From Thermogemmatispora sp. (lineage in GTDB: Bacteria; Chloroflexota; Ktedonobacteria; Ktedonobacterales; Ktedonobacteraceae): a stretch of 48,578 nt of DNA. Positions 33,452 to 48,578 of the stretch are shown one piece after another (position 1 is the first letter of the stretch; every line of letters starts with the position of its first letter). The notes under the pieces were generated by a model, which was not told the DNA's origin, did not search any database, and saw nothing but the letters and a program-made list of their open reading frames with translations. The translations under genes and the position numbers were made by a program. The stretch lies in the NCBI RefSeq assembly GCF_019683635.1, contig NZ_JADGIA010000010.1, forward strand, positions 1-48,578, read 5' to 3'.

Positions 33452-33589
33452 TCAAATAGGTTATTTCAATGGTACCATGCCCTGCCCAACGTGTCAACGC
33501 ACGACCAGGGAGAGGCCAGGAGCCAGCGAGGCCCGCACGCAGCCACCAAACGCCCACGAGGTGAGAGAAAACGAGTACTCAACTTCCCC

Positions 33590-33618
33590 TTGACAATCCT
33601 CTCTTTCTATGCTACCTT
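33590..33618 (+). promoter_or_regulatory. Promoter of the glucan-utilisation operon
   Basis: TTGACA (33590-33595), 17-bp spacer, TACCTT (33613-33618). The operator at 33636 starts roughly ten bases after the transcription start. The leader to the first gene is about 375 bases and holds no supportable gene. Confidence 0.55.
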
Positions 33619-33635
33619 CTTCTTCAGAAGGCAGA

Positions 33636-33647
33636 GTAAACGTTAAC
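33636..33647. promoter_or_regulatory. LacI operator candidate at the ABC/GH operon
   Basis: GTAAACGTTAAC, a near-palindrome (10 of 12 symmetric) with central CG, just after the promoter at 33590-33618. Roadblock or occlusion by the LacI repressor is the likely mode. Confidence 0.65.
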
Positions 33648-34000
33648 CTTACGTTGCCTCGGCTCATCTCAGCTCGTCAGCGCTTGACGGGAGCCAGCGC
33701 CTGCCAACGTTTGCCAGCGACAGATACGCTTAAGGAGGTCACTCAGCTATGGCGCTCTTTGCTTCTCCCCCACCAACACCAACACGCTCATCCTGAGCCA
33801 TCCTCACATATATCGCTTGCCTTGCTCCCGCTTCTGCCCGCCGTCTTCTGACCAGGCCAGCGTGGCCGAGCGCAGCAGGCCCTCTCTTCTCTCTGGCTCA
33901 GCCGGGACCATGCACCTGCTATGAGCAGGATGGATCTGATTAGGACATCCGTACGGCAGGTCGTAAAGACGTCATGTCTATTTGACAAGGAGGTTATCCT

Positions 34001-35371
34001 ATGAGCACGCAAGGACCAGGGTCCCCCTTGAATCGCCGTCGCTTCCTGCAGCGCTCGCTGGCGCTGGGGGCCAGCGTCGCGGGCTTAGAGTTGCTCGCGG
34101 CCTGTGGCGGCGCCAGCAGCAGCACCACTACCGTCAGCGCCACCGTCAATACTCTTCCCCCCTCGACCAATCCCGGAGCCGTCTATGTCTTCAACCAGGT
34201 CGTCAAAGACTTCGAGCAGGCCTATCCCCACGAGCATATCATCGGCAAGAACGACCCGTACGATCCCACGACCTACTTCGCCAAGCTGGCCGCCGGTCAG
34301 CTTGAAGACGGCATTCAAAGTTATTTCACCGAGCCACCCTTGCTCATCGCTCGTCACGCTGTGGCCGATATCACCAGCCTGGCCAAAAGTTGGCCCTCGT
34401 TCAAGGACTATATCCCCAGCATCGCCTCGATCGTGACCCGCGGCGACCGCGTCTACGGGATTCCGGTCAATGGCTACGTTCTCGGCATTTTCTATAACCG
34501 CAAGCTGTTCCAGGGAGCTGGCCTTGACCCTGACAAGCCACCCACGACCTGGGAGGACTTCCGCGGCTATGCGAAACAGCTCACCAGTTCGCAGGTAGCC
34601 GGCTTTGCGGAAACAAGCACGGCCAACCAGGGCGGCTGGCATTTCACCAACTGGATGTACACCGCCGGCGGCGATATGGAGTCCTCCGATGGCACTAAGG
34701 CTGTCTTCAATAGTCCCCAGGGGGTGAGCGTGCTGAATTTCCTGAAGGCTATGCGCTTCACCGATCGCTCGATGACGCAGCAGCAGCTGTTGACCCAGGC
34801 CGATACGCTGCAGCTGCTGGCAACCGGCAAGGTGGCGATGGTGGTGATGGCCCCCGATCAGCTCAATGCGCTGCAGGCGCAGTACCAGGCCAACTTGAAG
34901 GATTTCGGCATTGGTCCGATGCCCCAGAATGGCGGCAACGCGGCGCTGACCGGCGGCAATCTCTGGGTCTTCAATCCGAAGTCGGCCCCCGAGGTGATTA
35001 AAGCCGCCTTCGACTATGTGATTTATTCGAACTTCAATCTGGACGTTGTTGAGCGAAGCCTGGCTGAGCAAGCTGCTGCCGGTCAGGCCGTGGGCGCTCC
35101 AACGGCGGTGCTTTTCCAGGGAGCTTTTCAGCAGCAGCTCTCGGCTCTCTATCGCAAGTATGCCACAGTACCTCTGGAGAACTACACTTCCTTTATGAAC
35201 GCTACGCTCCAGCTTCGCCCGGAGCCGCGCAATCAGACGCAGAAAATGTATGCCACCCTCGACCCGGTCATGCAGGCTATTCTGACCGACCCCAAGGCCG
35301 ACCCGGAAACGCTGCTGAACCAGGCCGCTCATCAGTTCCAGCAGATTCTCGATCAGTCGTCTTCGTCCTAG
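34001..35371 (+). CDS. ABC sugar-binding protein, Tat-exported lipoprotein
   Basis: A 456-residue extracellular solute-binding protein (family 1). The N-terminus has a twin-arginine signal (NRRRFLQRSLALGASVAG) followed by a lipobox LLAAC (Cys about residue 35), so it is exported folded and lipid-anchored. The mature domain has QAYPHEHIIGKNDPYDPTTY, YGIPVNGYVLGIFYNRKLF and PPTTWEDFRGYAKQL, standard for carbohydrate binders. The ribosome site AAGGAGGTTATCCT is nearly full complementarity to 16S rRNA, so strong expression is expected. It feeds the two permeases encoded next; the probable ligand is an alpha-glucan oligosaccharide. Confidence 0.93.
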   Translation: MSTQGPGSPLNRRRFLQRSLALGASVAGLELLAACGGASSSTTTVSATVNTLPPSTNPGAVYVFNQVVKDFEQAYPHEHIIGKNDPYDPTTYFAKLAAGQLEDGIQSYFTEPPLLIARHAVADITSLAKSWPSFKDYIPSIASIVTRGDRVYGIPVNGYVLGIFYNRKLFQGAGLDPDKPPTTWEDFRGYAKQLTSSQVAGFAETSTANQGGWHFTNWMYTAGGDMESSDGTKAVFNSPQGVSVLNFLKAMRFTDRSMTQQQLLTQADTLQLLATGKVAMVVMAPDQLNALQAQYQANLKDFGIGPMPQNGGNAALTGGNLWVFNPKSAPEVIKAAFDYVIYSNFNLDVVERSLAEQAAAGQAVGAPTAVLFQGAFQQQLSALYRKYATVPLENYTSFMNATLQLRPEPRNQTQKMYATLDPVMQAILTDPKADPETLLNQAAHQFQQILDQSSSS

Positions 35372-35482
35372 AGAGGTTTGCCCGCTATGTTTCCGCGCCG
35401 TGGGCCTGCGTAGTGCCCAGCATCCTACCCGGCCAGGGCGCTCGCGCCACTGCGCGGGCACGGCGCACTGAAGGAGGACCTC

Positions 35483-36490
35483 ATGTCGCTTTCTTCGTCG
35501 TCATCATCGCCGCTCTCGCCAGCGCAGGAGTCGACGCCGCTCCTGACCTCGGACGAGGGGCTTATGACCGTCCGCTGGGCGCTTGTCCAGCGCCGCGGCG
35601 GCCTGCGCCGACGGCGACGCTGGGCGCTGTGGCGTCAGGTCCAGGGCTATCTCTTCCTGTTGCCAGCGTTGCTGATCTTTGCGCTCTTCGTCTGGTACCC
35701 GGTGGTGCTGGGCTTTGTGATGAGCTTTCAGAGCGTCGACTTGATCAATCCCGCGACCTGGGTCGGCTGGGCAAACTACCGCCACGTCTTCGCCGATCCC
35801 CTCTTCGCCATCGCCTGGCGCAATACGCTGGCATTTACCGGCTATGCCTTGCTCTTTGGGTATCTGGTGCCGCTAGTGCTGGCACTGGCCATTAACGAGA
35901 TGCGCCACGGCAAGAGCTATTTCCGCCTGGCCTTCTACCTGCCAGTCATGCTGCCGCCAATTGTGACGGTCTTCTTGTGGCGCTGGATGTATGACCCTGA
36001 CTCGGGCTTGCTGAACGCGCTCTTGAGCCTGGTCCATCTGCCAGGCCGGCTCTGGTTGGAAGATCCGCAGACCGCGCTCCCTGCGCTGGTAGTGGTGGCG
36101 ACCTGGAGCGCCGCCGGCTCGACGATGCTGGTCTATCTCGCCGCCCTTCAGGGCGTGCCAGCCTCTCTCTACGAGGCCGCAGAGATCGATGGGGCCGGCT
36201 TCTGGCGCCGCCTCTGGCATGTGACGCTGCCCTGCATTCGTCCAATTATGCTGCTGATGCTGGTGCTGCAGATCATCGCGACGATGCAGGTCTTTATCGA
36301 GCCGTTTACGATCACCGATGGCGGCCCCCAGCACGCTACGCTGAGTATCCTGCTGCTGATCTACACCTACGCTTTTCAGAATGCGGATTTCGGCGAGGCC
36401 AGTGCCCTCAGTGTGCTGCTCTTCCTGGTGCTGGCCGCGTTTGGGCTGATCTACCTGCGCCTGACGAGCCGTATGCTGCAAGGAGATTGA
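35483..36490 (+). CDS. ABC sugar permease (MalF/UgpA type)
   Basis: A 335-residue inner-membrane permease with six core helices (GYLFLLPALLIFALFVWYPV onward). The EAA loop is YEAAEIDGAGFWRRLWHVTLPCIRP, which contacts the ATPase. GGPQHATLSILLLIYTYAF is the usual C-terminal family segment. The 50-residue basic N-terminus is longer than average. Start supported by AAGGAGG. No ATPase gene is in this operon, so a shared MsmK/MalK-type ATPase encoded elsewhere must power it. Confidence 0.93.
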   Translation: MSLSSSSSSPLSPAQESTPLLTSDEGLMTVRWALVQRRGGLRRRRRWALWRQVQGYLFLLPALLIFALFVWYPVVLGFVMSFQSVDLINPATWVGWANYRHVFADPLFAIAWRNTLAFTGYALLFGYLVPLVLALAINEMRHGKSYFRLAFYLPVMLPPIVTVFLWRWMYDPDSGLLNALLSLVHLPGRLWLEDPQTALPALVVVATWSAAGSTMLVYLAALQGVPASLYEAAEIDGAGFWRRLWHVTLPCIRPIMLLMLVLQIIATMQVFIEPFTITDGGPQHATLSILLLIYTYAFQNADFGEASALSVLLFLVLAAFGLIYLRLTSRMLQGD

Positions 36491-36492
36491 CG

Positions 36493-37530
36493 ATGGCCAC
36501 AGAGTACCATGAGCCGCTTCTTGAGCAGGAGCCAGGTTCTGACCAGCGCCGCCAGAGAGATTCCGCAGATGGGCTGGCCCGCTCCCTGCTCAGGCGCGGA
36601 TGGCGCTGGCACCGCTCTGCCACAGCGACCTCTCGCTCATCTGAGGTCAGCAGCGAGCGCACGCTGCTTTCGCCCCTGATGCTGCGGCGTCCGCTGGTGC
36701 GCTTCTGCTATTGGGCGGTCTTTCTGCTGTTACTCGTGGGGACGCTGACGACGCTGGGACCGCTCTACTGGATGGTGAGCGGAGCCTTGAAGTCGAATGT
36801 GGAGATTTTCCAGAGGCCCCCCACGTTCTGGCCCGCTCATCCCCAATGGAGCAACTATAGCAATGCCTGGCAGATTCTGCAGCTTCCGCTCTATCTAGGG
36901 AATTCGCTGATTCTGGCTGCGGGGGCGGTGCTGCTGCAGTTGCTGGTCTCAGCGACGGCTGCATATGCCCTCTCGAAACTGCGCCCCTGGGGACGGAGCG
37001 CGATTCTGTTCGCCTTCTTTGCGACGTTGATGGTGCCCCCGGTCGTCTATTTGATCCCGCAGTTTGTCAATATCAGCGATCTGCCCCTGATCCACGTCTC
37101 GCTGATCAATAACTGGGCCGGGGTCTGGCTGCCCGAGGCGGCCAACGCTTTCAATATTCTGATCCTGAAGAGCTTCTTCGATACCATCCCCGGCGAGCTG
37201 ACCGATGCGGCCCGCCTGGATGGCGCCAGTAGCTGGCAGGTCTTTATACGCATTGTGTTACCCCTCTCGCGCCCAGCTCTGGCGGTGATCACGATTTTTA
37301 CGGTGATTGCTTCCTGGAAAGATTTCCTCTGGCCGCTGCTGGTGCTCTCGAATAGCAATCTGCAGCCGTTGATGGTGGCTCTCTACCATGAGTCGGGCCT
37401 TAACGCTAATCTGCCGTTTAGCTATCTGATGGCCGGCCTGGTCTTTGCCAGTCTCCCGCCCATTCTGCTGTTTTTGCTCTTCCAGCGCCAGATCATTCGT
37501 GGTGTCAATTTGACAGGCTTGAAGGGCTAG
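36493..37530 (+). CDS. ABC sugar permease (MalG/UgpE type)
   Basis: A 345-residue permease and partner of the preceding one. After a long hydrophilic N-terminus of about 70 residues, helix 1 is FCYWAVFLLLLVGTLTTLGP; the EAA loop is PGELTDAARLDGASSWQVFIRIVLP. YWMVSGALKSNVEIFQRPPTFWP is characteristic of MalG-type proteins. The ATG at 36493 follows AGGAG by seven bases and lies just past the upstream stop. The extended N-terminal tail is uncommon for this family. Confidence 0.93.
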   Translation: MATEYHEPLLEQEPGSDQRRQRDSADGLARSLLRRGWRWHRSATATSRSSEVSSERTLLSPLMLRRPLVRFCYWAVFLLLLVGTLTTLGPLYWMVSGALKSNVEIFQRPPTFWPAHPQWSNYSNAWQILQLPLYLGNSLILAAGAVLLQLLVSATAAYALSKLRPWGRSAILFAFFATLMVPPVVYLIPQFVNISDLPLIHVSLINNWAGVWLPEAANAFNILILKSFFDTIPGELTDAARLDGASSWQVFIRIVLPLSRPALAVITIFTVIASWKDFLWPLLVLSNSNLQPLMVALYHESGLNANLPFSYLMAGLVFASLPPILLFLLFQRQIIRGVNLTGLKG

Positions 37531-37646
37531 CCTGCTAGCTCATGAGCCTGCCAGGTGCTCTCTGGCAAGGCGCTGCCAGGGCGATAGCAGATGCGATGGA
37601 CAGTCACATGACCAGGCACAATGAGGTCAGAAAGGAATGGTTTCGT

Positions 37647-40600
37647 ATGCAGGATGCAATGCAGCGAATAATGGTCGCGCTGCGCAGGAACAGTAGTCGC
37701 AGGCTGGCGCTGCTGCTCGCGACGCTGCTATTGGTGCTTGGGAGCCTCGGAGCTTTGCTCACGCTGCCGCTCCTGGCGAAGGAGGTGAAGGCGAGCACCG
37801 CCGCGGTCACCGGTGGCGCTGGGGCGACGCTTCCCTATGTGGAGATGGAAGCGCACCAGGCTACAACCAATGGGAGTATTCTGGGACCCGATTTTTCGCT
37901 TGGGAGCCTGGCCTCCGATGCCGTGGATCGCCAGGCAGTCCTGTTGACCAGCGGTCAGTATGTACAGTTTACACTGACGCAGCCTGCCAATGCCCTGAAT
38001 CTGCGCTACAGTATCCCGGACTCCGCCAGCGGCGGCGGCATCTCGGCCACGCTGAGCATCTATATCAATGGGGTGAAGCAGTCTCAGGAGTTGCAGCTGA
38101 CGTCGAAATATAGCTGGCTCTACGGGCAGCCGAATTTTTCGAACTGCAACGCCAACGACTGGAGCGATACGCCTGGCGGCACGCCGCATCATCAGTTCGA
38201 TGAGGTGCATGTTCTGCTGCCGCAGATGAGCACAGGGACGACGGTCAAGCTGCAGGTCGATCCTGAGAATACAGCCCCCTGGTACGCCATTGATGTGGCC
38301 GATTTCGAGCAGGTACCGGCCCCGCTGACACAGCCCGCCGGCTCAATCTCGGTGACCGATCCACCATATAATGCTGATCCTACGGGCAAGGTCGATGCCA
38401 CGAGCGCCATTCAGCAGGCTGTCAATGATGCCTCGGCCCAGGGCAAGACGGTCTGGCTGCCCAAGGGGACCTATCTGGTGACCAGCCATATTCTGGTCAA
38501 CAATGTGACGATGACTGGGGCAGGCCCCTGGTATACTGTGCTGACGGGCGCTCCCGTGGGCAGCAACGGCACGGGCGTCGGTGTCTACGGCTACGATGCC
38601 TACGATGGTCAGACCAGCTCCAATGTGACTCTGTCAAACTTCGCCATCGAGGGGCAGATCACGAACCGCATCGACTGCCTCCAGGATAACGGTATCGGTG
38701 GCTCCCTGAACAATTCAACGATCTCGAACATCTGGATCGAACACACCAAGGTGGGGATGTGGTTCGATGGTCCCTTCAGCGGCCTGAAGATCACCGGCTG
38801 CCGCATCGATAGCGTGCTGGCCGATGGCATCAATTTCCATCGCAACGTGACCAACTCCAGTGTGACGCAGACCATTGTACGTGGCACCGGCGATGATGGT
38901 CTGGCGATGTGGTCGGCTACCGATAATGTGCCGGCCACTGGCGACAGCAACAATACGTTCGATCACGATACGGTGCAGTCGCCGTATCTGGCCAACGGGA
39001 TTGCGATCTACGGCGGTAATGGCAACAGCGTGACCAACGATCTGGTGACCGGCTCGCAGTACCGCGGCGGCGGCATCATGATCGATTATGAGGACTTTGG
39101 CAATGCCACCGCGCCTTTCGCCGGGACAACGACGGTGAGCAATGATACGATCCGGCAGACGGCGGGTATCGGCGACCAGGGCATTCAGCAGTTTGGGGCT
39201 TTGATGTTCTGGGCCGACAGCGGCGCGATGAACGCGACGTTCACGGTCTCGAATGTGGAGATCGATAACAGCCAGTATATGGCGATCTCGTTTGATGGCG
39301 GCAACCCCATCAGTACGGTCAATATGAATGGGGTGAACATCAGCGGCGCTGAGTTCGCCTTTTCGAACAAGGTGAGCCAGGTGACCGGCTCGGCGAGCAA
39401 TGTGACAGCCAGCGGGCTGACGGTGGCCAGCATCCAGAGCTGCGAGAGCAGCGGGTCCTGGAATATCACCCTGGGCAGCGGTAACTCCGGCTGGAGTCCT
39501 AGCTCGCAGGTCTGTGGCTTCCCAACAGGCACGCCAACCCCGACGCCTTCGCCAACGGCTCCATTGCCGACACCAACACCTTCGCCGACCCCAACGCCAC
39601 AGCCGGCACCGACGGGGACGCTGGTCCTGGCGATCAATGCCGGTGGCAGTGCGACTGGCAATTTCGTGGCCGACACCGACTACGATCAGGGCAACCAGTA
39701 CAGCGATACCTCGACGGCCATCAATACCAGCCGCGTGGCCGAATCTATCCCGCAGGCGGTCTGGCAGTCCTGTCGCTGGAATAGCTCCTTTACGTACACA
39801 ATCGGGGGCCTGCGCGCGGGCAACAGCTACACGGTGGCGCTCGATTGGGCAGAATTGACCTGGACGGCTGCGGGCCAGCGCCTCTTCAATGTGGCGATCA
39901 ATGGGACGACGGTGCTGAGCCGCTTCGATGTCTACGCCACGGCAGGCTACAAGACTGCGTTGCAGAAGCAGTTTACGGTAGCGGCCAATAGCAGCGGCCA
40001 GATCGTGATCGCCTTTACACAGGGCGGAGCCGATAATCCCTTTATCAGCGGCATTGAGATCTGGCAGCCGTCAGGCGGCACGGCAACACCGACCCCAACA
40101 GTGACAGTGACGCCAACGAGCACGCCCACACCGACGCCTGCTCCGTCGGGGACGCTGGTGCTGGCCATCAATGCCGGCGGCGGTGCGGCTGGCAATTTCG
40201 TGGCCGATACGGACTACAATCAGGGGAATCAGTATAGCGATACCTCGACGGCCATTAATACCAGTGGCGTCAGCAATCCCGCCCCACAGGCGGTCTGGCA
40301 GTCCTGCCGCTGGAATAGCTCCTTTACGTATACCATCCCCGGCTTGACGGCGGGGACAGTCTATGTGGTGAAGCTGGATTGGGCCGAGTTGACTTTCCAG
40401 GCCCCCGGCCAGCGCGTCTTCAATGTGACGATCAACGGGAGTCCGGCCCTGATAAACTTCGATGTCTATGCCACCGCAGGCTATAAGACTGCCGTACAGC
40501 GCCAGTTTAATGTGGCGGCCAATAGCAGCGGCCAGATCGTCATTGCTTTCACGCAGGGGACTGCCAAGGCCGACAATCCTTTCATTAATGGCATCGAGAT

Positions 40601-41096
40601 CTGGAAGCCAACCAGTACGCCGACGCCTCCCCCGACCGGAACGTTGATCACCGCGATCAACGCTGGTGGTTCGACTGCGGGCAATTTTGTGGCCGATACG
40701 GGCTACAACCAGGGGAACCAGTATAGCGATACCTCGACAGCCATTAATACCAGCGGCGTCAGCAATCCCGCCCCACAGGCGGTCTGGCAGTCCTGCCGCT
40801 GGAATAGCTCCTTCACTTACACCATCACTGGACTGTTCGCCGGGGCACGCTATACGGTGAAGCTGGATTGGGCCGAGCTGACTTTCCAGGCTTCAGGAAA
40901 GCGCGTCTTCAATGTGGCGATCAATGGACAGACGGTGCTGAGCAATTTCGATGTCTATGCCACCGCAGGCTATAAGACTGCTCTGCAGCGCCAGTTCACG
41001 GTTCAGGCTAACAGCAGTGGCCAGATCGTGATCTCCTTTACCCAGGGAAGCGCCGACAATCCCTTCATCAATGGCATCGAGATCTATCAGGCCTGA
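37647..41096 (+). CDS. Secreted GH87-like alpha-1,3-glucanase with three malectin-like repeats
   Basis: A protein of about 1149 residues. Signal peptide about residues 12-50 (LALLLATLLLVLGSLGALL). Then a CBM35-like module (about 60-210: YVEMEAHQATTNGS, GQYVQFTLTQPANALNLRYS, STYSWLYG-type segment) and a right-handed beta-helix catalytic domain starting YNADPTGKVDATSAIQQAVN. The helix carries ADGINFH (Asp 393) and, 23 residues later, the Asp pair 416-417 in TGDDGLAMWS; this one-plus-two Asp spacing is what I recall for GH87 mycodextranases. Three 150-residue malectin-like repeats follow, joined by Thr/Pro linkers. The enzyme should cut alpha-1,3-glucan outside the cell. Start ATG 37647 has AAAGGA upstream; the open frame extends to 37542. 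Confidence 0.78.
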   Translation: MQDAMQRIMVALRRNSSRRLALLLATLLLVLGSLGALLTLPLLAKEVKASTAAVTGGAGATLPYVEMEAHQATTNGSILGPDFSLGSLASDAVDRQAVLLTSGQYVQFTLTQPANALNLRYSIPDSASGGGISATLSIYINGVKQSQELQLTSKYSWLYGQPNFSNCNANDWSDTPGGTPHHQFDEVHVLLPQMSTGTTVKLQVDPENTAPWYAIDVADFEQVPAPLTQPAGSISVTDPPYNADPTGKVDATSAIQQAVNDASAQGKTVWLPKGTYLVTSHILVNNVTMTGAGPWYTVLTGAPVGSNGTGVGVYGYDAYDGQTSSNVTLSNFAIEGQITNRIDCLQDNGIGGSLNNSTISNIWIEHTKVGMWFDGPFSGLKITGCRIDSVLADGINFHRNVTNSSVTQTIVRGTGDDGLAMWSATDNVPATGDSNNTFDHDTVQSPYLANGIAIYGGNGNSVTNDLVTGSQYRGGGIMIDYEDFGNATAPFAGTTTVSNDTIRQTAGIGDQGIQQFGALMFWADSGAMNATFTVSNVEIDNSQYMAISFDGGNPISTVNMNGVNISGAEFAFSNKVSQVTGSASNVTASGLTVASIQSCESSGSWNITLGSGNSGWSPSSQVCGFPTGTPTPTPSPTAPLPTPTPSPTPTPQPAPTGTLVLAINAGGSATGNFVADTDYDQGNQYSDTSTAINTSRVAESIPQAVWQSCRWNSSFTYTIGGLRAGNSYTVALDWAELTWTAAGQRLFNVAINGTTVLSRFDVYATAGYKTALQKQFTVAANSSGQIVIAFTQGGADNPFISGIEIWQPSGGTATPTPTVTVTPTSTPTPTPAPSGTLVLAINAGGGAAGNFVADTDYNQGNQYSDTSTAINTSGVSNPAPQAVWQSCRWNSSFTYTIPGLTAGTVYVVKLDWAELTFQAPGQRVFNVTINGSPALINFDVYATAGYKTAVQRQFNVAANSSGQIVIAFTQGTAKADNPFINGIEIWKPTSTPTPPPTGTLITAINAGGSTAGNFVADTGYNQGNQYSDTSTAINTSGVSNPAPQAVWQSCRWNSSFTYTITGLFAGARYTVKLDWAELTFQASGKRVFNVAINGQTVLSNFDVYATAGYKTALQRQFTVQANSSGQIVISFTQGSADNPFINGIEIYQA
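39615..41093 (+). repeat. Three tandem malectin-like domain repeats
   Basis: Units at about 39615-40070, 40148-40605 and 40640-41093, each encoding LAINAGG...GNFVADT-Y-QGNQYSDTSTAINTS...QAVWQSCRWNSSFTYTI...FDVYATAGYKTA...SGQIVI-FTQG...NPFI-GIEI. Units 2 and 3 share long near-identical DNA stretches (for example 40228-40325 with 40720-40812), so that duplication is recent or maintained by gene conversion. Confidence 0.9.
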
Positions 41097-41182
41097 TCTG
41101 CCTGCATGGGATACAGCATCGCTTTCCCTGACAGGTGAGTGGATAAGCAGACGAGCAAGGAAGCTGGTTGCTGGATAGAAAA

Positions 41183-41228
41183 GACCCCGCTCGGAGCGCG
41201 GAGCGCTCGCTCCGCCTCCGGAGGGGTC
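41183..41228 (+). other. Strong intercistronic hairpin between GH87-like and GH31 genes
   Basis: GACCCC (41183-41188) pairs with GGGGTC (41223-41228), and inside it CGGAGCG (41192-41198) pairs with CGCTCCG (41208-41214). A short GTTTT follows eight bases later or so. It may be a partial terminator that lowers GH31 expression, or an mRNA 3' stabiliser. Confidence 0.55.
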
Positions 41229-41350
41229 AGGTTTTCACAGGCCGGCCCGGCCCAGTTCAACAGCGCTTCTTTGCCCGTTTTTCAGCGAACCGATGATCAG
41301 CGGTCAGCTTATAAAAACAAGCAACTAGAGTGGAAAGGAACCAAGATTTC

Positions 41351-43912
41351 ATGGAGAGGGCACAGCCAGTAGCCACCAATGCTCACCCCGCTGTCACCTT
41401 ACCGGACGGCTATCGGGTCCTGGGTCAAGCCCAGGTCTGCGAGCGAGACGCCGCCAGGATCTGCCTACGCAGCGGACCGGCCAGCGTTGAGGTGACGGCC
41501 CTTGCGCCGGACCTCTTCCGCGTTGGCCTCTTTCTGGATGGCCGTCCCCGCCGCTACGAGTCGCCGGCAGTGGTGGAACAAGCCTGGCAGCCAGAGTCTG
41601 TCACTATCACAGAGCCAGCAGCGGGACAGCTGAGCATGGCCACCTCGTTCGCGACGGCGCACCTCTCTCTTGATCCCTTGCGTCTCAGTTTTTCCGATCC
41701 GAGCGGGCGGATCTTCGCCGCCGATGATCCCGAGCTGGGGATGGGCTGGTTCGAACGGCCCGCCGAGGAGGCCCTGCTACCGCTGGCCAATGTGGCCGGA
41801 ACCCTCGGCCTACCGCTGCGCGTCTATAAGCGACACCTGCCCGAGGAGCGCTATTTCGGCTGTGGCGAGCGCTTCGGCGGTTTGGATAAGACAGGGACCT
41901 ACCAGATCTTTTGGAACACCGATCCGCAACCCGGGCACAGCGTTTTCCACAATAACTTGTATGTCTCTATCCCTTTTACGCTGGTGCTGGCCGATGGTCT
42001 GGCCTGGGGGCTGTTTCTGGATAATCCCGGGCGGGTGGCTTTCGATCTGGCTCATGAGCATCCAGCTCGCTCCTGGTTCGGCACCAGTACCGGCGACCTG
42101 ATCTATTATGTCTTCTGTGGCCCGACCCCACAGGCCGTGCTGGAGCGCTACACCGAGTTGACTGGGCGCACTCCTCTGCCACCACTCTGGTCGCTCGGCA
42201 ACGGACAGAGCCGCTTCAGCTATGCTTCCGCCGAGGAGCTGCGCGAGGTGGCGACCACCTTCCGCGCGCGCGATATTCCGTGCGACACGCTCTATCTGGA
42301 TATCGATGCGCTCGATGGCTACCGCGTCTTTACGTGGGATCAGGAGCGCTTTCCCGATCCCGCCGGCCTCTTCTCCGAGCTGCGCGCGCAAGGCTTCCAT
42401 GTGGTGAGCATTGTTGATGCGGGCATCAAGGTCGATGAGCACTACGCGGTCTATGTAGATGGCAAGCGGCGCGATCTTTATTGCAAGACCCCCGACTATC
42501 AGGATTATCAAAATGCGGTCTGGCCGGGCCTTTGCGTCTTTCCCGATGTGACCAACCCGGCGGCGCGCGCCTGGTGGGGCGAGCAGCATCGCTCACTGCT
42601 CGATGCTGGGGTAGCCGGCATTTGGACCGATATGAACGAGCCGGCTGTTTTTATTCCGGTACATGGGACGCTGCCCCCTGAGACGATCCACCCCGGCGGC
42701 GGGACTCCACGTCTGCATGTTGAGATTCACAATGCCTATGGCTCGTTATTGGTCCAGGCGACGCGCGAGGGTCTGGAGCGCCTGCGCCCGGACCAGCGCC
42801 CGTTTGTGATTTCGCGCGCCGGCTACGCTGGTATCCAGCGCCATGCTTTGATCTGGACCGGCGATAATGCGTCAACGTGGGAGGATCTGGCGCAGAGTGT
42901 GTCGCAGTTGCTCAATCTGGGTCTCTCCGGTGTGAGCTGGTGTGGCAGCGACATCGGTGGCTTCTATGGCGATTGTAGCGGCGAGCTGCTGGCTCGCTGG
43001 ACAGAGTTCGGGATCTTTCAGGCTTTCTGCCGCAACCACTCGGAGAAGCAGACGCGCCGTCAAGAGCCGTGGGTCTTTGGCGAGCCGTACGAGTCGGTCT
43101 GTCGCGCCATGCTCAAGCTACGGCAGCGTCTGCTCCCCTACCTGTATACGCTGTTCGAGGAGTGCCATCGCACTGGTGCGCCAGTGCTGCGCCCGCTCTT
43201 CTGGATGGCGCCGGCAGACCCCGTCGCCTGGGCTTACGATGACGAAGCGCTCTGCGGCCCTGCGCTGCTCGTAGCTCCTGTCTCGCGCCCGGGTGTCAGT
43301 CACCGTCATGTCTATCTGCCCGCCGGCACCTGGTTCCACTTCTGGAGCGGCCAGCGCTTGAGCGGTCCGGCCCATGTGGTAGCCTATGCCCCGCTCGGGC
43401 AGCCAGCGCTCTACGTGCGGGCGAATACGGCGGTGCCACTCTGGCCCGAGATGAACTACGTGGGAGAGCGAGCACCAGATCCGCTGACACTGCTGCTTTA
43501 CCCAGCCGAAGGGAGCGGCGAGAGCAGTCTCTACGAGGACGCCGGCGATGGCTATGGCTACTTGCAGGGGGAATACGCTCGCCGGCGCATCATTTGCGAG
43601 GTCGAGGGCGATGAGATTCGCGTGTTCCTCAGCGCCCGCGAGGGCAGCTTTGTGCCGCAGCGCCAGCGCATCGTGTTGGAGCTGCGTGCCCTTGAGCGCG
43701 CTCCCCGGAGTGTCGAGCAACGCACCGGAGACGGTGACTCTGCCGGTCCGGTCGAGTGGTCCTATGACCAGGAGCAGGGCCGCCTGCTGGTGACGTTGCG
43801 GGAGCAGGTTGAGGCGCAGGAGCTGAGCATCCGCCTGGCGGCAACAGCCACCGAGGGAGGATCTGGCGCCTGGCTGGAGGAGACGGACGAGGAGCCTGCT
43901 GATCGGCTTTGA
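41351..43912 (+). CDS. Glycoside hydrolase family 31 alpha-glucosidase
   Basis: An 853-residue cytosolic enzyme (no signal peptide). Order: N-terminal beta-sandwich with FGCGERFGGLDKTGTYQIFW, (beta/alpha)8 barrel with PPLWSLGNGQSRFSYAS and DTLYLDIDALDGYRVFTWD, then C-terminal beta domains. The nucleophile is Asp 427 in GIWTDMNEPAVF and the acid/base is Asp 505 in IWTGDNASTWEDL. DIGGFYGD and GEPYESVCRAMLKLRQRLLPYLYTLF are also diagnostic. Retaining exo-hydrolysis of alpha-glucosides is expected; preference for 1,3-linked (nigerose-type) substrates is inferred from the locus. The frame opens at GTG 41330, but ATG 41351 with AAAGGA upstream is preferred. Last gene of the operon, before a terminator. 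Confidence 0.95.
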   Translation: MERAQPVATNAHPAVTLPDGYRVLGQAQVCERDAARICLRSGPASVEVTALAPDLFRVGLFLDGRPRRYESPAVVEQAWQPESVTITEPAAGQLSMATSFATAHLSLDPLRLSFSDPSGRIFAADDPELGMGWFERPAEEALLPLANVAGTLGLPLRVYKRHLPEERYFGCGERFGGLDKTGTYQIFWNTDPQPGHSVFHNNLYVSIPFTLVLADGLAWGLFLDNPGRVAFDLAHEHPARSWFGTSTGDLIYYVFCGPTPQAVLERYTELTGRTPLPPLWSLGNGQSRFSYASAEELREVATTFRARDIPCDTLYLDIDALDGYRVFTWDQERFPDPAGLFSELRAQGFHVVSIVDAGIKVDEHYAVYVDGKRRDLYCKTPDYQDYQNAVWPGLCVFPDVTNPAARAWWGEQHRSLLDAGVAGIWTDMNEPAVFIPVHGTLPPETIHPGGGTPRLHVEIHNAYGSLLVQATREGLERLRPDQRPFVISRAGYAGIQRHALIWTGDNASTWEDLAQSVSQLLNLGLSGVSWCGSDIGGFYGDCSGELLARWTEFGIFQAFCRNHSEKQTRRQEPWVFGEPYESVCRAMLKLRQRLLPYLYTLFEECHRTGAPVLRPLFWMAPADPVAWAYDDEALCGPALLVAPVSRPGVSHRHVYLPAGTWFHFWSGQRLSGPAHVVAYAPLGQPALYVRANTAVPLWPEMNYVGERAPDPLTLLLYPAEGSGESSLYEDAGDGYGYLQGEYARRRIICEVEGDEIRVFLSAREGSFVPQRQRIVLELRALERAPRSVEQRTGDGDSAGPVEWSYDQEQGRLLVTLREQVEAQELSIRLAATATEGGSGAWLEETDEEPADRL

Positions 43913-43968
43913 GCTGTAGGCAAGCTGTTGACCTTCCCGCTGCTCGCCCTGGTCACTCACCAGGCATT

Positions 43969-43998
43969 CAGGCCGCCGCGCGGCCTGCTTCGTTTTTT
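43969..43998 (+). terminator. Rho-independent terminator of the glucan operon
   Basis: CAGGCCG (43969-43975) pairs with CGGCCTG (43981-43987) around CCGCG, followed shortly by six T (43993-43998). It lies 57 bases after the GH31 stop. Confidence 0.85.
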
Positions 43999-44060
43999 CA
44001 CCTGGGCTCACTCGTTAGATCTGTCTTCAAGATCTTTGTGCTGCCAGAGCTAGAGAGAGG

Positions 44061-44098
44061 AAGAGTGCTGGCAAGAGGTGCCAGCACTCTTCTTTTTG
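44061..44098 (+). terminator. Second strong rho-independent terminator
   Basis: A perfect 13-bp stem, AAGAGTGCTGGCA (44061-44073) with TGCCAGCACTCTT (44079-44091), loop AGAGG, followed by CTTTTTG. It is independent of the terminator 60 bases before it. The short interval between the two contains no gene, so this one may terminate a small RNA or insulate the cas region. Confidence 0.85.
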
Positions 44099-44131
44099 TT
44101 TCTCTCCTCTTTTTTTTTGAATACTTCCGAG

Positions 44132-44154
44132 GATTCCGATACTTTAGCGGAATC
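44132..44154. promoter_or_regulatory. Inverted-repeat operator upstream of the cas1 remnant
   Basis: GATTCCG (44132-44138), nine bases, CGGAATC (44148-44154). A second copy with the same 9-base gap and 20 of 23 identical bases lies at 44831-44853 before the WYL-cas3 operon. A promoter-like TTGAAT-17-TACTTT (44117-44145) overlaps it. A regulator, most simply the WYL protein, probably binds here. Confidence 0.7.
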
Positions 44155-44280
44155 TTCTCGCTACTCTTGTGGGCATGAGCGCGCTGCTGCTAAGGCTGCT
44201 TCAGCCTGGTAGCTGCAGTATAATTACCAGACTGTTCCGATAAAAATGTCAATGGCTATCGTCTGACGGATAGGGAAACA

Positions 44281-44640
44281 ATGAATCTGATTGTGGAAGG
44301 GAAAGGCATCTTTATTAGTAAACATCAAGGAAGAATTCGTCTGGTCCAGGGATCGCAGGTCGTGGAGGAAATACCTCTGATCCATCTCAAGCAAATTCTT
44401 GTTATCGATACAGGCGTTGGGATCTCCAGCGATGTGGTGAAGCTCTGCAGCGAGGAAGGGATTGCGCTCCATTTCCTGGAGATTGGAAGGCCGGGCCGCT
44501 CAGCACTACGGAGCGGGCGTCAGGTATGTTCTGCCTGAGCAGATCGCTTGGCCCGGATGGCAGACACGGGGAGCCACCGATCTTTTCAATGCCCTCCTCA
44601 ACTACGGCTACGGCGTGCTTTATGCTCAAGTTGAACAGCC
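44281..44640 (+). pseudogene. cas1: Collapsed cas1 (CRISPR integrase) gene
   Basis: The first 65 codons or so (frame of 44281) are a Cas1 beta-strand domain: MNLIVEGKGIFISKHQGRIR, then VVEEIPLIHLKQILVIDTGV and EEGIALHFLEIG. About 44475 onward, in another frame, the helical domain resumes with LEGRAAQHYGAGVRYVLPEQ and TRGATDLFNALLNYGYGVLY. The catalytic Glu of the EGRAA motif is kept, but roughly 90-100 residues between the parts are missing, and the half with the catalytic His and Asp is gone. The sequence then jumps into a Cas4 tail. Cas1 with Cas2 integrates spacers; this copy cannot. A TATAAT (44219-44224) and a weak GGGA ribosome site remain upstream. Confidence 0.85.
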
Positions 44641-44768
44641 GCCGTGTTGAGACAACAGTGGCGGCCATCCGTCAGAGCCTGCAGACAGAGGGTCTGCCAG
44701 GGCCCACAGCTCAGCAGCGCCGCTGCCCACTGTGCGAGTTTCGCCGCTTCTGCAACGACGTGGTGTGA
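44636..44768 (+). pseudogene. cas4: cas4 3' remnant
   Basis: In a third frame, from the deletion joint with cas1, the sequence encodes RRVETTVAAIRQSLQTEGLP and then QQRRCPLCEFRRFCNDVV, ending at a stop. C-x2-C-x5-C after an A-I-R-x-L...G-x-P segment is the C-terminal iron-sulfur signature of Cas4 nucleases. The nuclease core and first Cys are absent. Cas4 trims prespacers with Cas1. The order cas1-part then cas4-part is the reverse of the cas4-cas1 fusion known in type I-G, so the joint arose by deletion from cas1 into a downstream cas4. Confidence 0.75.
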
Positions 44769-44808
44769 GTCAGGAGAACAGGAGAGCAGAGAGCGAACGC
44801 AAGGCGTA

Positions 44809-44830
44809 CCGGTCTTTTCTCTAAGACCGG
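44809..44830 (+). other. Perfect hairpin abutting the WYL operator
   Basis: CCGGTCTT (44809-44816) pairs with AAGACCGG (44823-44830), 6-base loop; the operator begins at the very next base. No U-tract follows. It may be a second protein site or the remnant terminator of the lost cas genes. Confidence 0.5.
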
Positions 44831-44853
44831 GATTCCGACGATTTAGCGGAATC
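44831..44853. promoter_or_regulatory. Inverted-repeat operator upstream of the WYL-cas3 operon
   Basis: GATTCCG (44831-44837), nine bases, CGGAATC (44847-44853). TATACT (44861-44866) starts seven bases after it, so the operator would cover the -35 region. The copy at 44132-44154 likewise has a -10-like TACTCT (44162-44167) exactly seven bases after it. Confidence 0.7.
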
Positions 44854-44946
44854 GTTAGGCTATACTGCTTCCCAGAGCAGCGGGCCGCCTGGCTCAGCTC
44901 CTCGGCCAGGTCAAGACAAGAGCACGAAGGGAAAGGAGACGCCGCC

Positions 44947-46026
44947 TTGAATACCGAGACCATGAAACGGGTCCATCGCCTGCAGACTATCATTCACCTT
45001 TTCGAGAGTCATATGAAGCGGCGGTGGCGCACCCGCGAAATCGCTGAGCGGCTGGGCATCAATGAGGATACGGCGAACAAGTACCTGAATGAGCTGCAGC
45101 TAACCGGCCTGCTGCCTCTCACGAAAGAGGGCCTCTACTGGTTTTTGCCGGAAGGGGCGGTCATCCCCAGGCTACAGCTCTCCCTGAGCTATCCCGAGGC
45201 GGTGGGCCTCTATCTGGCTGGCCGCCTCCTGGCTCAGACGCGCGATGAGCGGAACTGGCATTTGACAATGGCCCTGCATAAGTTGGTAGAGGCCCTGCCC
45301 GCTCCCGTGCGCGAGCAGCAGGAGACTATTGCCGCGCTGCTGCTCACGGAGGATAGCGACAGGGAAGATGTTTCGGCCATTTTTCTGGCACTGGCGTGCG
45401 GCTGGGTCCAACACCGCCGCCTACGCCTGGTCTACGAGCCGCCGCGCAAGAGCCGTTTCGAGACGCTTTTCGATCCTTACCTGCTGGAACCATCAGCTAT
45501 CGGACGGACCATCTACGTGCTCGGCTACAGTCATACCGTGCGGGCCTTGCGTACTTTGAAGCTGGAGCGCATCCGACATGCAGAGCTAACCAGTGAGACG
45601 TTTGTCCCCGATCCCTCCTTTAAGGCTGAGGAATTGCTGCAACGGGCCTGGGGCGTGATGTACGGCGATGAGGAACCGGTCAGGGTACGCTTGCACTTCA
45701 GCAGCCAGGTGGTGAAGCGCGTGCGTGAGACGCGCTGGCATCCGTCGCAGGAGATTCGTCTGACGCGCGACGGCTGCGAGTGGACGGCCCTGATCGGTGA
45801 CCTGGTCGAGATCGAACCCTGGGTTCGCGGTTGGGGCGCCGACTGTGTGGTGTTGGAGCCGGAAGAGCTACGCCTGCGAGTCATTAGCCACGTCCAACGA
45901 GCCAGCCAGAACTATGGATTGCAGCGCCCCGCCCTCTCCACCCACGAGCCAGGCAGGCTCAACGCGGATCTGTTCCGCCGTCCCGCCCGGCCAGAAGAGG
46001 CTGAAGTGAAGGAAAGAAAGGAGTGA
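44947..46026 (+). CDS. WYL-domain transcriptional regulator of the CRISPR-Cas locus
   Basis: A 359-residue regulator. N-terminal winged helix-turn-helix (about 5-65): LQTIIHLFESHMKRRWRTRE, IAERLGINEDTANKYLNELQLTGLLPL. The WYL domain (about 150-215) has RRLRLVYEPPRKSRFETLFDPYLLEP and TIYVLGYSHTVRALRTLKLE, where IYVLGY replaces the usual WYLVGY; a WCX-like C-terminal extension follows (VKRVRETRWHPSQEI, IGDLVEIEPWVRGWGADCVV). WYL proteins are common regulators of CRISPR loci and sense nucleic acid or nucleotides. The TTG at 44947 is eight bases after AAAGGAG and is chosen over ATG 44962; the frame is open back to 44644 through the cas4 remnant. cas3 follows after 12 bases. Confidence 0.9.
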   Translation: MNTETMKRVHRLQTIIHLFESHMKRRWRTREIAERLGINEDTANKYLNELQLTGLLPLTKEGLYWFLPEGAVIPRLQLSLSYPEAVGLYLAGRLLAQTRDERNWHLTMALHKLVEALPAPVREQQETIAALLLTEDSDREDVSAIFLALACGWVQHRRLRLVYEPPRKSRFETLFDPYLLEPSAIGRTIYVLGYSHTVRALRTLKLERIRHAELTSETFVPDPSFKAEELLQRAWGVMYGDEEPVRVRLHFSSQVVKRVRETRWHPSQEIRLTRDGCEWTALIGDLVEIEPWVRGWGADCVVLEPEELRLRVISHVQRASQNYGLQRPALSTHEPGRLNADLFRRPARPEEAEVKERKE

Positions 46027-46038
46027 GCGGTTTCCCTC

Positions 46039-48578
46039 ATGAAGACTCTCTATCCCTATCAGGAGCGTGTGCTCCAGGTGCTGGCCCAGGGCCGCAATGT
46101 GATTCTGGTCATTCCGACGGGCGGCGGAAAGACGCTGGCAGCCCTGCTACCCTTCCTGCAGAGCTGCGCGTTTAACGATGGGACGCTGCCCGGGAAGGCG
46201 CTCTACGTCTCGCCCATGCGGGTGCTGGCCACGCAGTTCATCAGAACCTGCCGCCAGTTACTGGAGGAGGAGCTGAACCCGCTCTTGATCGAGCCGCTGC
46301 GCCAACGCTATGCCCAGTTCGGTCGTTCGCTGCTCAGTTTGCAAACAGGCGAGTCGCCGGACGATCCCCAGTTCGAGTCATTGATCATCGCCTGCACGAT
46401 CGATCAGCTGCTGGCCAGCGCTCTCGGCGTGCCCTATAGCGTCGACGGGGCGCGCGCCAATATCAATGTTGGTCTGCTCGCCAGCACCTACCTGATTCTG
46501 GATGAGCCGCATCTCTATCCGCTCAATCGGCAAGGCCAGAGCTGCTTTGGCGCCCTGACAACAACGATCGAGCTGCTGCGCCAGCTCAAGGATCTGACCC
46601 GCTTTATCTTCATGAGCGCGACCCTCTCCAGGCCACTGGTGGAGCAACTGGCGCAGATGATCGATGCTGAGGTGATTGAGGCAAGCGATGAGGAGCTGAC
46701 CGCCCTGGCCAAGGGACGTCAGCGCGTCTTTCGGCGCGTGGCGGAGCCGCTGAGCGCCGAGCAGGTGCTTGCGCGTCACCAGCGCTGCTCTCTGGCGGTC
46801 TGTAACCGTGTCGAGCGAGCCCAGGAGCTATATCTGCAGCTTGATGAGCTGATTCAAGAGCGCGGGCTTGACATCCGTCTGCAACTGCTGCACAGCCGCT
46901 TTAGTGATGAGGATCGGCGCCGCCAGGGCGAGGAACTGCAGCGTTTGCTTGGTCCCGCCGCCTGGGACGAGGAGAGCGGGCGCTATCAGGGCGAGAATGT
47001 GATTGTGGTGGCGACGCAGGTGGTCGAGGTGGGGCTTGATATCTCGGTTGAGACGCTGCACAGCGAGCTGTCGCCAGCCAATAGCCTGATCCAGCGCGCC
47101 GGACGCTGCGCGCGCTTCCCTCGCCAGCAGGGGCAGGTCTTTGTCTACTCGCTCCCCGTCGATGATCAGGGTCAGCCGCAGACACTGCCCTACGAGCCGG
47201 AACCCTGTCAACGTACCTGGGAGGCCCTGGCCGAGTACGATGGCCAGGTAGTGCGCTTTCAGGAGGAGCGCCGCCTGCTTGACACGGTCCACTGTGAGAG
47301 CGACCTCCAGTTGCTGGCGCGCTACGAGGAGCAACGGCCCCTTCTGCTGGAGAAGATGGTGACCAGCTTGAGGAAACCCGATCCAAGTGTGCGCTCTACG
47401 CTGATCCGTGACGATCTGCAAGTGGCGCTGCTGGTGCACGATGCGCCCGAAGAGGAGATCGTCACAGCGCCCTGGCACTGGCAGCTTTTCACGCTGCGTC
47501 CCAGTCTGCTGCAGGGCCGGCACTGGCGGGCCCTACAGGAGCGGGCCGCCGCACTGGGCCTCGATTGGGTGTGCAAACAAGCGGTGCTCGTGGATAGCGG
47601 GAGCGGGACAGCGGCCCAGGGCGAGGACGATAGCCGGCGCGAGCCACTCTATACGTGGGAGCCGGTGACCAACCCGGCCCAGATCAGCAGTGCGCTGGTC
47701 TTGGCTCTGCCGCAGGCCCTGGTGACCTACGATCGCGATCTGGGCCTGGTCTTCCGCGACGGACGTCTGCCGCTGTCCGCGCGCTGGCGGCAGCGCCTTG
47801 AGGGCACGCGCTACCAGAGCCGTCCGCAGGAGCGGCGGCGTTCAGGTGCGGCCAGTCAGACGGTCTCGCGCCAGCGCTACGAGGAGCACATTGGGGGACT
47901 GGCCGACGCCTACCACTACGGCCTCTACCATGAGCTGGCCTATGCTCTGCGCCGCCTGGAGGAGCGCATGGGAGTGGCAGCGGGCACGATTGATCAGGCC
48001 ATTCAGTTGGCCCTGGCCCTGCACGACCTGGGGAAACTGGCTGAGGGCTGGCAGCGTTGGGCCCGCGCCTGGGAGCGCCTCTATCACGAAAAGAAGGGTC
48101 TGCACTATCAGGAACCGGCAGCCGATTATCTCTTTGCCAAGACGACCTATAATGTGCGAGCCCGCGAAGAGCGACAGTGGGAGCAAGAGCTAGCCGAACG
48201 CCGTCCTAACCACGCCTGTGAGAGCGTGGCTTTGGCGCGCCGCTTCATTGTGGACTGCCTGGGCGCGACAACGCCGGCCAGCCCCACTGCGCCCGTGGCG
48301 CGGGCCACCTGCTATGCCATTGCCCGTCATCATACCACAGGGGCCCACGAATATGGTGCGAGCAGGCTGGCGCCAGGAGCCTTAGAGGCGGTACGGCGAG
48401 CCTTAGCCCTGGTACAGCGCGAGACCCCTCCTCAGCCCATGAACCTGCAGTTGATTCTGCCAGCGTGCCAGCAAGGAGATCTCTTCCCCGAGAACGCCAC
48501 TTCGGGGAAGTTCAGTCAGCCCGCGCTGGACCTGCACAAACCCCACTACGAAACCTGGCTGGCCTTTGTCATGACACG
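46039..48578 (+). CDS. cas3: CRISPR-associated helicase-nuclease Cas3, HD domain C-terminal (partial)
   Basis: At least 846 codons, open to the window end. It begins directly with the helicase: YPYQERVLQVL, Walker A IPTGGGKT (Lys 31), Walker B/DExH LILDEPHLYPL (Asp 155), motif III FMSATLS (about 193), motif V/VI VVEVGLDI and LIQRAGRCARF (about 352). The HD nuclease comes afterwards: EEHIGGLADAYHYGLYHELA, then LALALHDLGKLAEGW (His 662-Asp 663) and IARHHTTGAHEYG. Cas3 unwinds and degrades target DNA after Cascade binding. Most type I Cas3 proteins have HD first; helicase-then-HD order is a known trait of subtype I-G (formerly I-U). No RAMP or Cas8 gene is visible yet, as these would lie beyond the window. 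Co-transcribed with the WYL gene. Confidence 0.92.
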   Translation, partial: MKTLYPYQERVLQVLAQGRNVILVIPTGGGKTLAALLPFLQSCAFNDGTLPGKALYVSPMRVLATQFIRTCRQLLEEELNPLLIEPLRQRYAQFGRSLLSLQTGESPDDPQFESLIIACTIDQLLASALGVPYSVDGARANINVGLLASTYLILDEPHLYPLNRQGQSCFGALTTTIELLRQLKDLTRFIFMSATLSRPLVEQLAQMIDAEVIEASDEELTALAKGRQRVFRRVAEPLSAEQVLARHQRCSLAVCNRVERAQELYLQLDELIQERGLDIRLQLLHSRFSDEDRRRQGEELQRLLGPAAWDEESGRYQGENVIVVATQVVEVGLDISVETLHSELSPANSLIQRAGRCARFPRQQGQVFVYSLPVDDQGQPQTLPYEPEPCQRTWEALAEYDGQVVRFQEERRLLDTVHCESDLQLLARYEEQRPLLLEKMVTSLRKPDPSVRSTLIRDDLQVALLVHDAPEEEIVTAPWHWQLFTLRPSLLQGRHWRALQERAAALGLDWVCKQAVLVDSGSGTAAQGEDDSRREPLYTWEPVTNPAQISSALVLALPQALVTYDRDLGLVFRDGRLPLSARWRQRLEGTRYQSRPQERRRSGAASQTVSRQRYEEHIGGLADAYHYGLYHELAYALRRLEERMGVAAGTIDQAIQLALALHDLGKLAEGWQRWARAWERLYHEKKGLHYQEPAADYLFAKTTYNVRAREERQWEQELAERRPNHACESVALARRFIVDCLGATTPASPTAPVARATCYAIARHHTTGAHEYGASRLAPGALEAVRRALALVQRETPPQPMNLQLILPACQQGDLFPENATSGKFSQPALDLHKPHYETWLAFVMT

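Follow-up and report, generated by a model that had tools for sequence, protein, structure and literature searches.

What does a CRISPR (clustered regularly interspaced short palindromic repeats) system become once the genes with which it acquires spacers are gone? The question is raised by a locus at the end of a 48,578-nucleotide stretch of Thermogemmatispora sp. DNA (contig NZ_JADGIA010000010.1 of assembly GCF_019683635.1; hereafter the window), in which remnants of cas1 and cas4 are followed by open frames for a WYL-domain regulator and for cas3. The window is the full contig C130 of genome G000, a draft of 361 contigs and 5.41 Mb with 93% completeness, and the genus comparison covered six Thermogemmatispora genomes, G000 to G005. 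Among these, G001, an assembly of 6 contigs, was taken as Thermogemmatispora tikiterensis T81, G003 as T. carboxidivorans PM5, G004 as the metagenome-assembled genome HOG45 and G005 as T. aurantia A1-2, while the more distant G024 was taken as Ktedonobacter sp. SOSP1-85 and G012 as another genome of the genus Ktedonobacter. We consider it probable that the locus is an interference-only module left by a stepwise loss of adaptation genes, which would have been shed through redundancy, and that it was recently frozen in G000.

The Pfam Cas1 profile (PF01867) matched the window in two different frames, profile positions 1-64 at 44287-44481 and 153-204 at 44480-44635, and a third frame carried the C-terminal tail of cas4, matched by TIGR00372 positions 141-179 in the open reading frame (ORF) 44526-44768 with a score below the model's cut-off. 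A preliminary description of this DNA had read a cas1 remnant fused out of frame to a cas4 tail, and the matches in three frames bear this out. Comparison with an intact congener shows what is missing: the rest of cas1, the whole of cas2 and the first 171 codons of cas4. The missing part of cas1 includes what we take to be its His/Asp motifs. The pieces that remain are as follows.

44281..44482, + strand: cas1 remnant, N-terminal piece, about codons 1-67 (Pfam match, congener alignment)
44483..44638, + strand: cas1 remnant, middle piece, about codons 164-222, in another frame (Pfam match, congener alignment)
44639..44768, + strand: cas4 C-terminal tail, codons 172-213 of 213 (TIGR00372 match, congener alignment)

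Junction 1, at 44482/44483, where about 307 bp inside cas1 are missing relative to G001, was found in G000 only, whereas junction 2, at 44638/44639, where the rest of cas1, all of cas2 and most of cas4 are gone (about 1.19 kb relative to G003), is common to G000 and G001; the sequence shared at each of the two is about 1 bp, judged by eye. An intact cas1-cas2-cas4 set lies between both promoter repeats in G002, G003 and G004, sister genomes of the kind that the preliminary description had proposed to compare, with lengths of 340, 116 and 213 amino acids in G003. A single deletion in G001 joined cas1 codons 1-222 to cas4 codons 172-213, and G000 displays this same junction plus the further deletion in cas1. 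G005 carries an unrelated deletion, in which cas1 runs to about codon 152 and the second repeat follows closely. Adaptation in cis was lost in three of the six genomes by at least two separate deletions, and the unit of repeat, WYL gene and cas3, proposed earlier to outlive the adaptation genes, does so in two unrelated deletion haplotypes.

Such junctions might be produced by assembly or sequencing artefacts in a fragmented draft, and it is in keeping with this that the draft has 361 contigs and that junction 1, as well as a deletion in the type I-D locus of the same genome (see below), was seen in G000 only. Junction 2, however, recurs in the separate six-contig assembly of G001, so that sequencing error is unlikely and assembly error can be rejected for this junction; moreover, the 1-4 bp shared at the junctions (by eye) would be too short for joining by a graph assembler, which makes an assembly error unlikely for junction 1 and the I-D deletion too. 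We find an artefact scarcely credible.

The genes that follow the remnants present a different picture. The regulator and cas3, described earlier as open frames, are open indeed, cas3 up to the contig end.

44947..46026, + strand: WYL-WCX regulator with a putative N-terminal HTH, intact frame, start codon TTG assumed (ORF, Pfam)
46039..48578, + strand: cas3, with the helicase first and the HD nuclease at the C-terminus; frame intact up to the end of the window and contig, where the gene is cut (ORF, profiles)

Both the WYL and WCX domains of the regulator scored above the Pfam cut-off, and its N-terminus matched HTH_23 (E 2e-4) and HTH_11 (E 2.5e-4), both under the curated cut-off. Cas3 is one protein of at least 846 amino acids with the helicase first and the HD domain last, nearest to the type I-G Cas3 model at a score below its cut-off (197.6 vs 400 bits), and each of the five genomes examined has all six motifs that we take to mark its nuclease and helicase. 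By G001 coordinates, the effector genes resume about 200 bp further on, on contig C355 of G000, where cas8a (its start lost at the contig end), cas7 (330 amino acids), cas5 (245 amino acids) and a cas6 ORF of 415 amino acids were found without stops; these are the Cas8, Cas7 and Cas5 genes that were to be sought beyond the window. An intact adaptation set just past the window was not encountered, the order in congeners placing cas8a directly after cas3. The cas8a of G000 is 94% identical to the G003 copy, and PADLOC named the G003 proteins Cas8a (E 1.7e-56), Cas7 (1.2e-58), Cas5a (2.7e-58) and Cas6. No NCBIfam or Pfam match was obtained for G003 Cas8a, and G003 Cas7 matched Pfam DevR/Csa2 and, below its cut-off, NCBIfam Csa2. 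A tblastn search with G003 queries disclosed no stops in WYL, cas3, cas8a, cas7 or cas5 of the six genomes (G004 being partial, at contig ends), and in cas6 a single stop apiece for G002 and G005, in each case within a short, weakly matching N-terminal piece that the true gene probably does not include. Because the helicase and HD domain of Cas3 sit in one protein, we classify the locus by its sequence as type I-A-like and not as canonical I-A; a Cas3 split into helicase and HD proteins is typical of archaeal I-A.

The adaptation remnants and the interference operon each follow a copy of one inverted repeat, and both copies are intact in G000 and G001.

44132..44154, + strand: operator-like inverted repeat 1, at the cas1 promoter (22 of its 23 columns identical across G000-G004, the genomes counted)
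44162..44167, + strand: -10-like hexamer TACTCT, 11 nt after GCGG of repeat 1
44831..44853, + strand: operator-like inverted repeat 2, WYL-cas3 promoter
44861..44866, + strand: -10-like hexamer TATACT, 11 nt after GCGG of repeat 2

The two copies in the window differ at 3 of 23 bases, all within the 9 bp between identical 7-bp arms. With 0-2 mismatches, the 23-bp pattern was found at exactly two places per genome in all six members of the genus, before cas1 and before WYL; the other matches listed were the same palindromes on the opposite strand and one site with three mismatches elsewhere in G002, and the backwards control of the pattern gave one match over the six genomes. The occurrence of the same repeat before the cas1 remnant and before WYL-cas3 is thereby confirmed as above chance. 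A wider regulon was sought in the six genomes and not found, since the matches with 0-2 mismatches amount to these two promoters only. The preliminary description had also taken the pair as a duplicated operator marking the decay, but it is present in the intact congeners and at both promoters in the genus Ktedonobacter, and is therefore better described as an older pair, one per operon.

A shortened core, TTCCG-N4-TTTrGCGG, was detected at both promoters in G024 and G012; in G013, on the contig of L166, it precedes WYL. At all 17 pattern-matching sites in three genera (12 in Thermogemmatispora, four in the genus Ktedonobacter and one in G013/L166), a hexamer begins 11 nt after GCGG; TATACT occurs ten times, TACTCT five times, and TATCCT and TGCTAT once each. 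TGCTAT belongs to the promoter of the dead cas1 of G005, where the core is reversed and which the core pattern was widened to take in. In a gapped alignment anchored at the WYL start, covering four of the six genomes (the anchor missed G002 and G005), repeat 2 was invariant in 23 of 23 columns, compared with 42 of the 83 columns that precede it and 55 of the 88 from the hexamer to the WYL start; an earlier count of 20 of 20 was dropped, as its sites had been located by that very sequence. The strict core with the hexamer was searched in 473,414 bases of genus DNA (33 loci, leaving out L052, L055, L056 and L057, which hold known sites) and occurred there at two places, both of them the G001 sites; the window has its own two. 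When one mismatch was allowed, G024 gave two exact sites in the locus and two others with one mismatch (backwards control 3), G012 two exact and one other (control 3), G013 one exact on a short contig (control 0) and G014 none (control 2), and neither G024 nor G012 had an exact site outside the locus. The one-mismatch matches are at background level, and the exact ones are informative by their place.

On this evidence the repeat is a conserved promoter element, older than the deletions. It is also the probable operator of the WYL protein, to judge from its position, its exclusiveness and the behaviour of the regulator BrxR, and repression by this protein would follow the examples of BrxR and Sll7009, both compared below. 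In relatives whose adaptation genes are intact, a single WYL protein most likely governs the two operons, and with them its own gene, by binding the inverted repeat that overlaps the promoters, as the conserved position of the latter suggests. An origin of the pair as solitary CRISPR repeats from collapsed arrays was considered and rejected, because G024 has arrays plus separate core repeats adjoining the hexamer, and its array repeat is a different sequence. At the I-A-like locus of G024 (L064), two arrays end before the cas1 and WYL promoters and are followed by similar leader-like sequences.

If adaptation genes are missing in cis, could they be supplied from elsewhere in the cell? The one other cas1 of G000, sought as a second cas1-cas2 set, lies in a type I-D locus on contig C217 and is truncated too. 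PADLOC recognised Cas10d (E 1.9e-107), Csc2/Cas7d (1.4e-108), Csc1/Cas5d (3.4e-62), Cas3d (3.2e-58) and Cas6d, where Cas5d, like Cas1d, was tested on the G001 copy, and Cas10d, Cas7d, Cas3d and Cas6d on G000 proteins. A deletion of about 640 bp, seen in G000 only and with 4 bp shared at its junction (by eye), cuts cas4 short after codon 167 of 254 and removes the first 111 of the 365 codons of cas1, leaving matches to cas4 codons 2-167 and cas1 codons 112-365; the remaining I-D Cas1 is presumably dead. The I-D cas1 is of full length in G001, G002, G003 and G005, and G004 shows only the I-A-like cas1, so that full-length cas1 genes number two in G002 and G003, one in G001, G004 and G005, and none found in G000. 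No third cas1 locus was detected in the G000 draft with PF01867 (three partial matches at two loci, none complete), and the N-terminal part lost from the I-D Cas1 did not turn up in G000 when looked for directly, in a search that had no positive control. The I-D cas4 alignments of G002 and G005 each contain one stop, at residue 26 of an over-long query ORF, which probably lies before the true start and is not a break. At L065 (C217 of G000, 1-1082), an I-D array reaches the end of cas2 and has changed repeats there, with GGAAC and GGAAT endings; this suggests that the array has its trailer end towards cas2 and its leader past the contig start.

The presence of this second set probably made the loss in cis tolerable. 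As the I-D set of G000 is also truncated and no intact cas1 was found in the draft, spacer acquisition has probably ended in this genome, and the module would act in interference only, on the spacers it last held. No arrays were detected around the I-A-like locus in the stretches examined of G001, G002, G003 and G005. Two dispersed repeat families were observed, an I-D family, beside the I-D locus and elsewhere, and an I-A-like family (TTCAGTATCC...CTGCnAC) similar to the repeats that flank the I-A-like locus of G024, and the guide RNAs probably come from the dispersed arrays whose repeat is like that of the Ktedonobacter locus. Copies of the I-A-like repeat (up to three mismatches, G024-like pattern) numbered 108 in G003, 86 in G002, 61 in G005, 41 in G001, 21 in G004 and 3 in G000, and a pattern fitted to the genus gave 52 in G001 and 23 in G000; most are in the cas1-intact G002 and G003 and few in G004, also intact, in a comparison confounded by draft quality and pattern fit.

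The spacers tell how far the memory has been fixed. Between G000 and G001, one spacer was shared in the I-A-like family (among 17 and 43, respectively) and one in the I-D family (among 30 and 49), and one was common to G003 and G005; three shared pairs were counted among 441 parsed spacers of congeners; the parsing covered the stretches examined, with none of the I-A-like family of G002 and none of the arrays of G004, and it supersedes earlier counts from a fuzzy pattern that split arrays. At one array site the flank is 99.65% identical between G000 and G001 over 1,446 bp, and a single spacer is common to the two arrays. Spacers in common that would prove a fixed memory were looked for, and hardly any were found. 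The fixed memory proposed in the preliminary description does not hold as stated, given that the parsed arrays of G000 and G001 differ almost completely and that G001 and G005 have a full-length I-D cas1; of the earlier interpretation, the adaptation loss with a surviving repeat-WYL-cas3 unit stands, and the decay mark and this fixed memory do not. The spacers do not support a memory fixed since the deletion that the two genomes share; one fixed recently in G000 is possible. The array contents may have changed through earlier acquisition, a helper in trans or array exchange.

The almost complete difference between the parsed arrays of two genomes that both lack an I-A-like cas1 is what would be expected if the I-D Cas1-Cas2 fed these arrays in trans, in which case the loss in cis would be costless and the module not frozen. 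The full-length I-D cas1 of G001 and G005 agrees with such a supply, which for these two genomes overlaps with the explanation that we favour. Against it, Cas1 is usually leader or repeat specific and the I-A-like and I-D repeats are dissimilar; in G000 even the I-D cas1 is truncated; and the turnover may predate the deletion or come from array exchange by recombination. Adaptation of VI-B arrays by a II-C system has been published (PMC8092290), and we regard adaptation in trans as possible, though clearly less likely than an interference-only module.

Some further matches were noticed near the arrays. Two G003 spacers of the I-A-like family match chromosomal DNA at L086 (C177 of G000, 5635-5670) and L148 (G001, 7872-7907), over 36/38 bases at 97% (G000 and G001) and 94% (G001). 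The targets are in ORFs with HTH/TPR or weak TPR matches, adjoining arrays, and look like protospacers because no repeats flank them. Two spacers of the G001 array L090 likewise match G000 L087 (C97) at 968-999 and 1880-1914, adjoining the same-site array and without flanking repeats. At L144 (C263 of G000), the site with the 99.65% identical flank, about 2.2 kb before the array (1447-3676) were unmatched in the G001 stretch examined at that site.

Is the remaining operon kept, or is it merely slower to die? The ratio of nonsynonymous to synonymous substitution rates (dN/dS, Nei-Gojobori) for G000-G001, the pair that shares the deletion, was 0.163 for cas8a, 0.031 for cas7, 0 for cas5 and 0.148 for cas6, with synonymous to nonsynonymous counts of 10:1 in cas7 and 2:0 in cas5, and we conclude from these sequence comparisons that the Cascade genes are held by purifying selection. 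A ratio for the cas1 remnant was unreliable, as the protein alignment overran the deletion, and was not used.

Several points weigh against the explanation that we favour. In the same pair, dN/dS is raised for WYL (0.494) and cas3 (0.328), which together have 24:27 synonymous to nonsynonymous changes against 51:20 in Cascade (Fisher p 0.008), and this rise may reflect relaxed constraint and early decay. An intact cas1 of G000 could lie in a gap of the draft (361 contigs, 93% completeness), and the truncated I-D Cas1 keeps its C-terminal domain. Only the similarity of their repeats ties the dispersed arrays to this effector. The link between WYL and the repeat is not universal, since the core, with up to two mismatches, was not found at the WYL genes of L167 (the same as L043, Dictyobacter), L045 and L047, the last having one two-mismatch match on the opposite strand; the cas1 genes related to this one in G007 (L029) and G018 (L048) gave no match either.

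The rise in WYL and cas3 speaks for a general decay, in which the whole locus is dying, the adaptation genes having gone first as least missed and WYL-cas3 being next, so that the frames would stay open only for a while. WYL+cas3 are looser in G000-G001 than in G002-G003 (175:58, p 0.0002; WYL p 0.0115 and cas3 p 0.0047 when taken singly), and the hexamer at the promoter of the cas1 remnant in G005 is unlike all others. Cascade, however, did not differ between these pairs (p 0.57), and the contrast of WYL+cas3 with Cascade had the same direction in G002-G005 (p 0.084) and the opposite one in G002-G003 (p 0.073), neither being significant. Young pairs tend toward raised dN/dS, and owing to this effect, the eleven tests and the rounded counts, the loosening is only a lead. 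The stop-free frames from WYL to cas5, the substitution counts of cas7 and cas5, and the intact repeats of G000 and G001 likewise oppose a general decay, which we judge improbable.

The identity between G000 and G001 varies along the genome. Per kilobase of the window it is mostly 82-95%, with peaks of 97-98% near 33 and 39 kb; it reaches 97-99% at the CRISPR locus and 96-99% over the Cascade genes, is 94% on contig C222, and is mostly 99% or more on stretches adjoining arrays on C97, C177 and C263. In 500-bp steps, window positions 30001-48578 swing between 76% and 99.6%, a strong recombination-like mosaic. The locus, deletion included, appears from these values to have been exchanged between lineages by recombination, and its age therefore need not equal that of the species.

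A stand-alone interference operon with a conserved regulator and repeats may also suggest a repurposed, non-adaptive effector, that is, a WYL-controlled Cascade serving regulation or another fixed task, and effector loci that lack adaptation genes have been described elsewhere (PMC12669027, PMC8616872). The nuclease and helicase motifs of Cas3 are nevertheless present, and no spacer set is common to the parsed arrays of the congeners, which makes such a role very unlikely. As the sequence shows, cas1-cas2-cas4 were lost by successive deletions and the interference operon stayed open, with Cascade under selection. A broader claim, that the shedding of adaptation genes with paired WYL-type repeats and interference operon kept is a recurring, recombination-spread state, of which G000, with both cas1 loci broken and its memory recently locked, is an instance, is advanced as a doubtful, tentative proposal.

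Two other features of the window were recorded. At 37542-41096 it encodes a 1184-amino-acid protein with three similar C-terminal repeats of about 150 amino acids each (by eye, from the ORF list), and the following lies ahead of repeat 1.

44060..44092, + strand: terminator-like element after an upstream glycosidase-like gene, a perfect 14-bp inverted repeat with T-rich DNA behind it

To our knowledge, the origin of adaptation-less interference modules has seldom been caught in steps. Here, one genus displays intact, once-deleted and twice-deleted alleles, an independent second loss and a lasting pair of regulator and repeat. Two questions become testable, namely what sustains an effector that lacks adaptation genes (a helper Cas1, old spacers or nothing) and whether the regulator loosens once adaptation is lost; the repeat, compact and conserved, is a candidate operator through which a WYL protein would govern the adaptation half as well as the interference half of a CRISPR system. 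If the broader proposal is true, G003, G001 and G000 would form a natural before-and-after series on what a bacterium gains by ceasing to learn.

With reference to known systems, the locus resembles type I-A (the Cas8a lineage) in that Cas8a, Cas5a and a Csa2/DevR-type Cas7 are among the best matches in G003, where cas1-cas2-cas4 and Cas6 are also found; it differs in its single helicase-HD Cas3, in a WYL protein in place of Csa3 regulators and in the lost adaptation genes. The literature search found no description of this CRISPR locus, which is not proof of absence, and nothing on Thermogemmatispora plus CRISPR that concerned its CRISPR loci, judged by title. BrxR is an HTH-WYL repressor of a bacteriophage exclusion (BREX) island, for which repeat sites are reported ahead of both its own gene and a defence gene (PMC9122601), and like the present regulator, whose HTH is putative, it is a WYL protein beside a defence operon; its repeats are of 11 bp with a 5-bp spacer, unlike the 7-bp arms with 9 bp between them found here at two CRISPR operons and known from sequence. 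Sll7009 of Synechocystis, a WYL protein reported as negative regulator of a I-D CRISPR locus (PMC4012209, PMC6604393), is likewise encoded inside a type I CRISPR locus, though of another subtype. Csa3a of the Sulfolobus islandicus I-A system binds imperfect palindromes at adaptation-gene promoters (PMC4333418) and is a MarR-like activator, whereas here the putative regulator is a WYL protein, with the same site at adaptation and interference promoters. As in VI-B with II-C (PMC8092290), an effector locus without cas1 occurs in a cell that has or had another cas1; unlike that case, the loss is caught here in steps within one genus, and the helper of G000 is truncated too. An interference module that outlives its adaptation genes, and WYL control, are already known; what is new is the series of successive losses, the pair of sites at a fixed promoter position and the loss at both cas1 loci.

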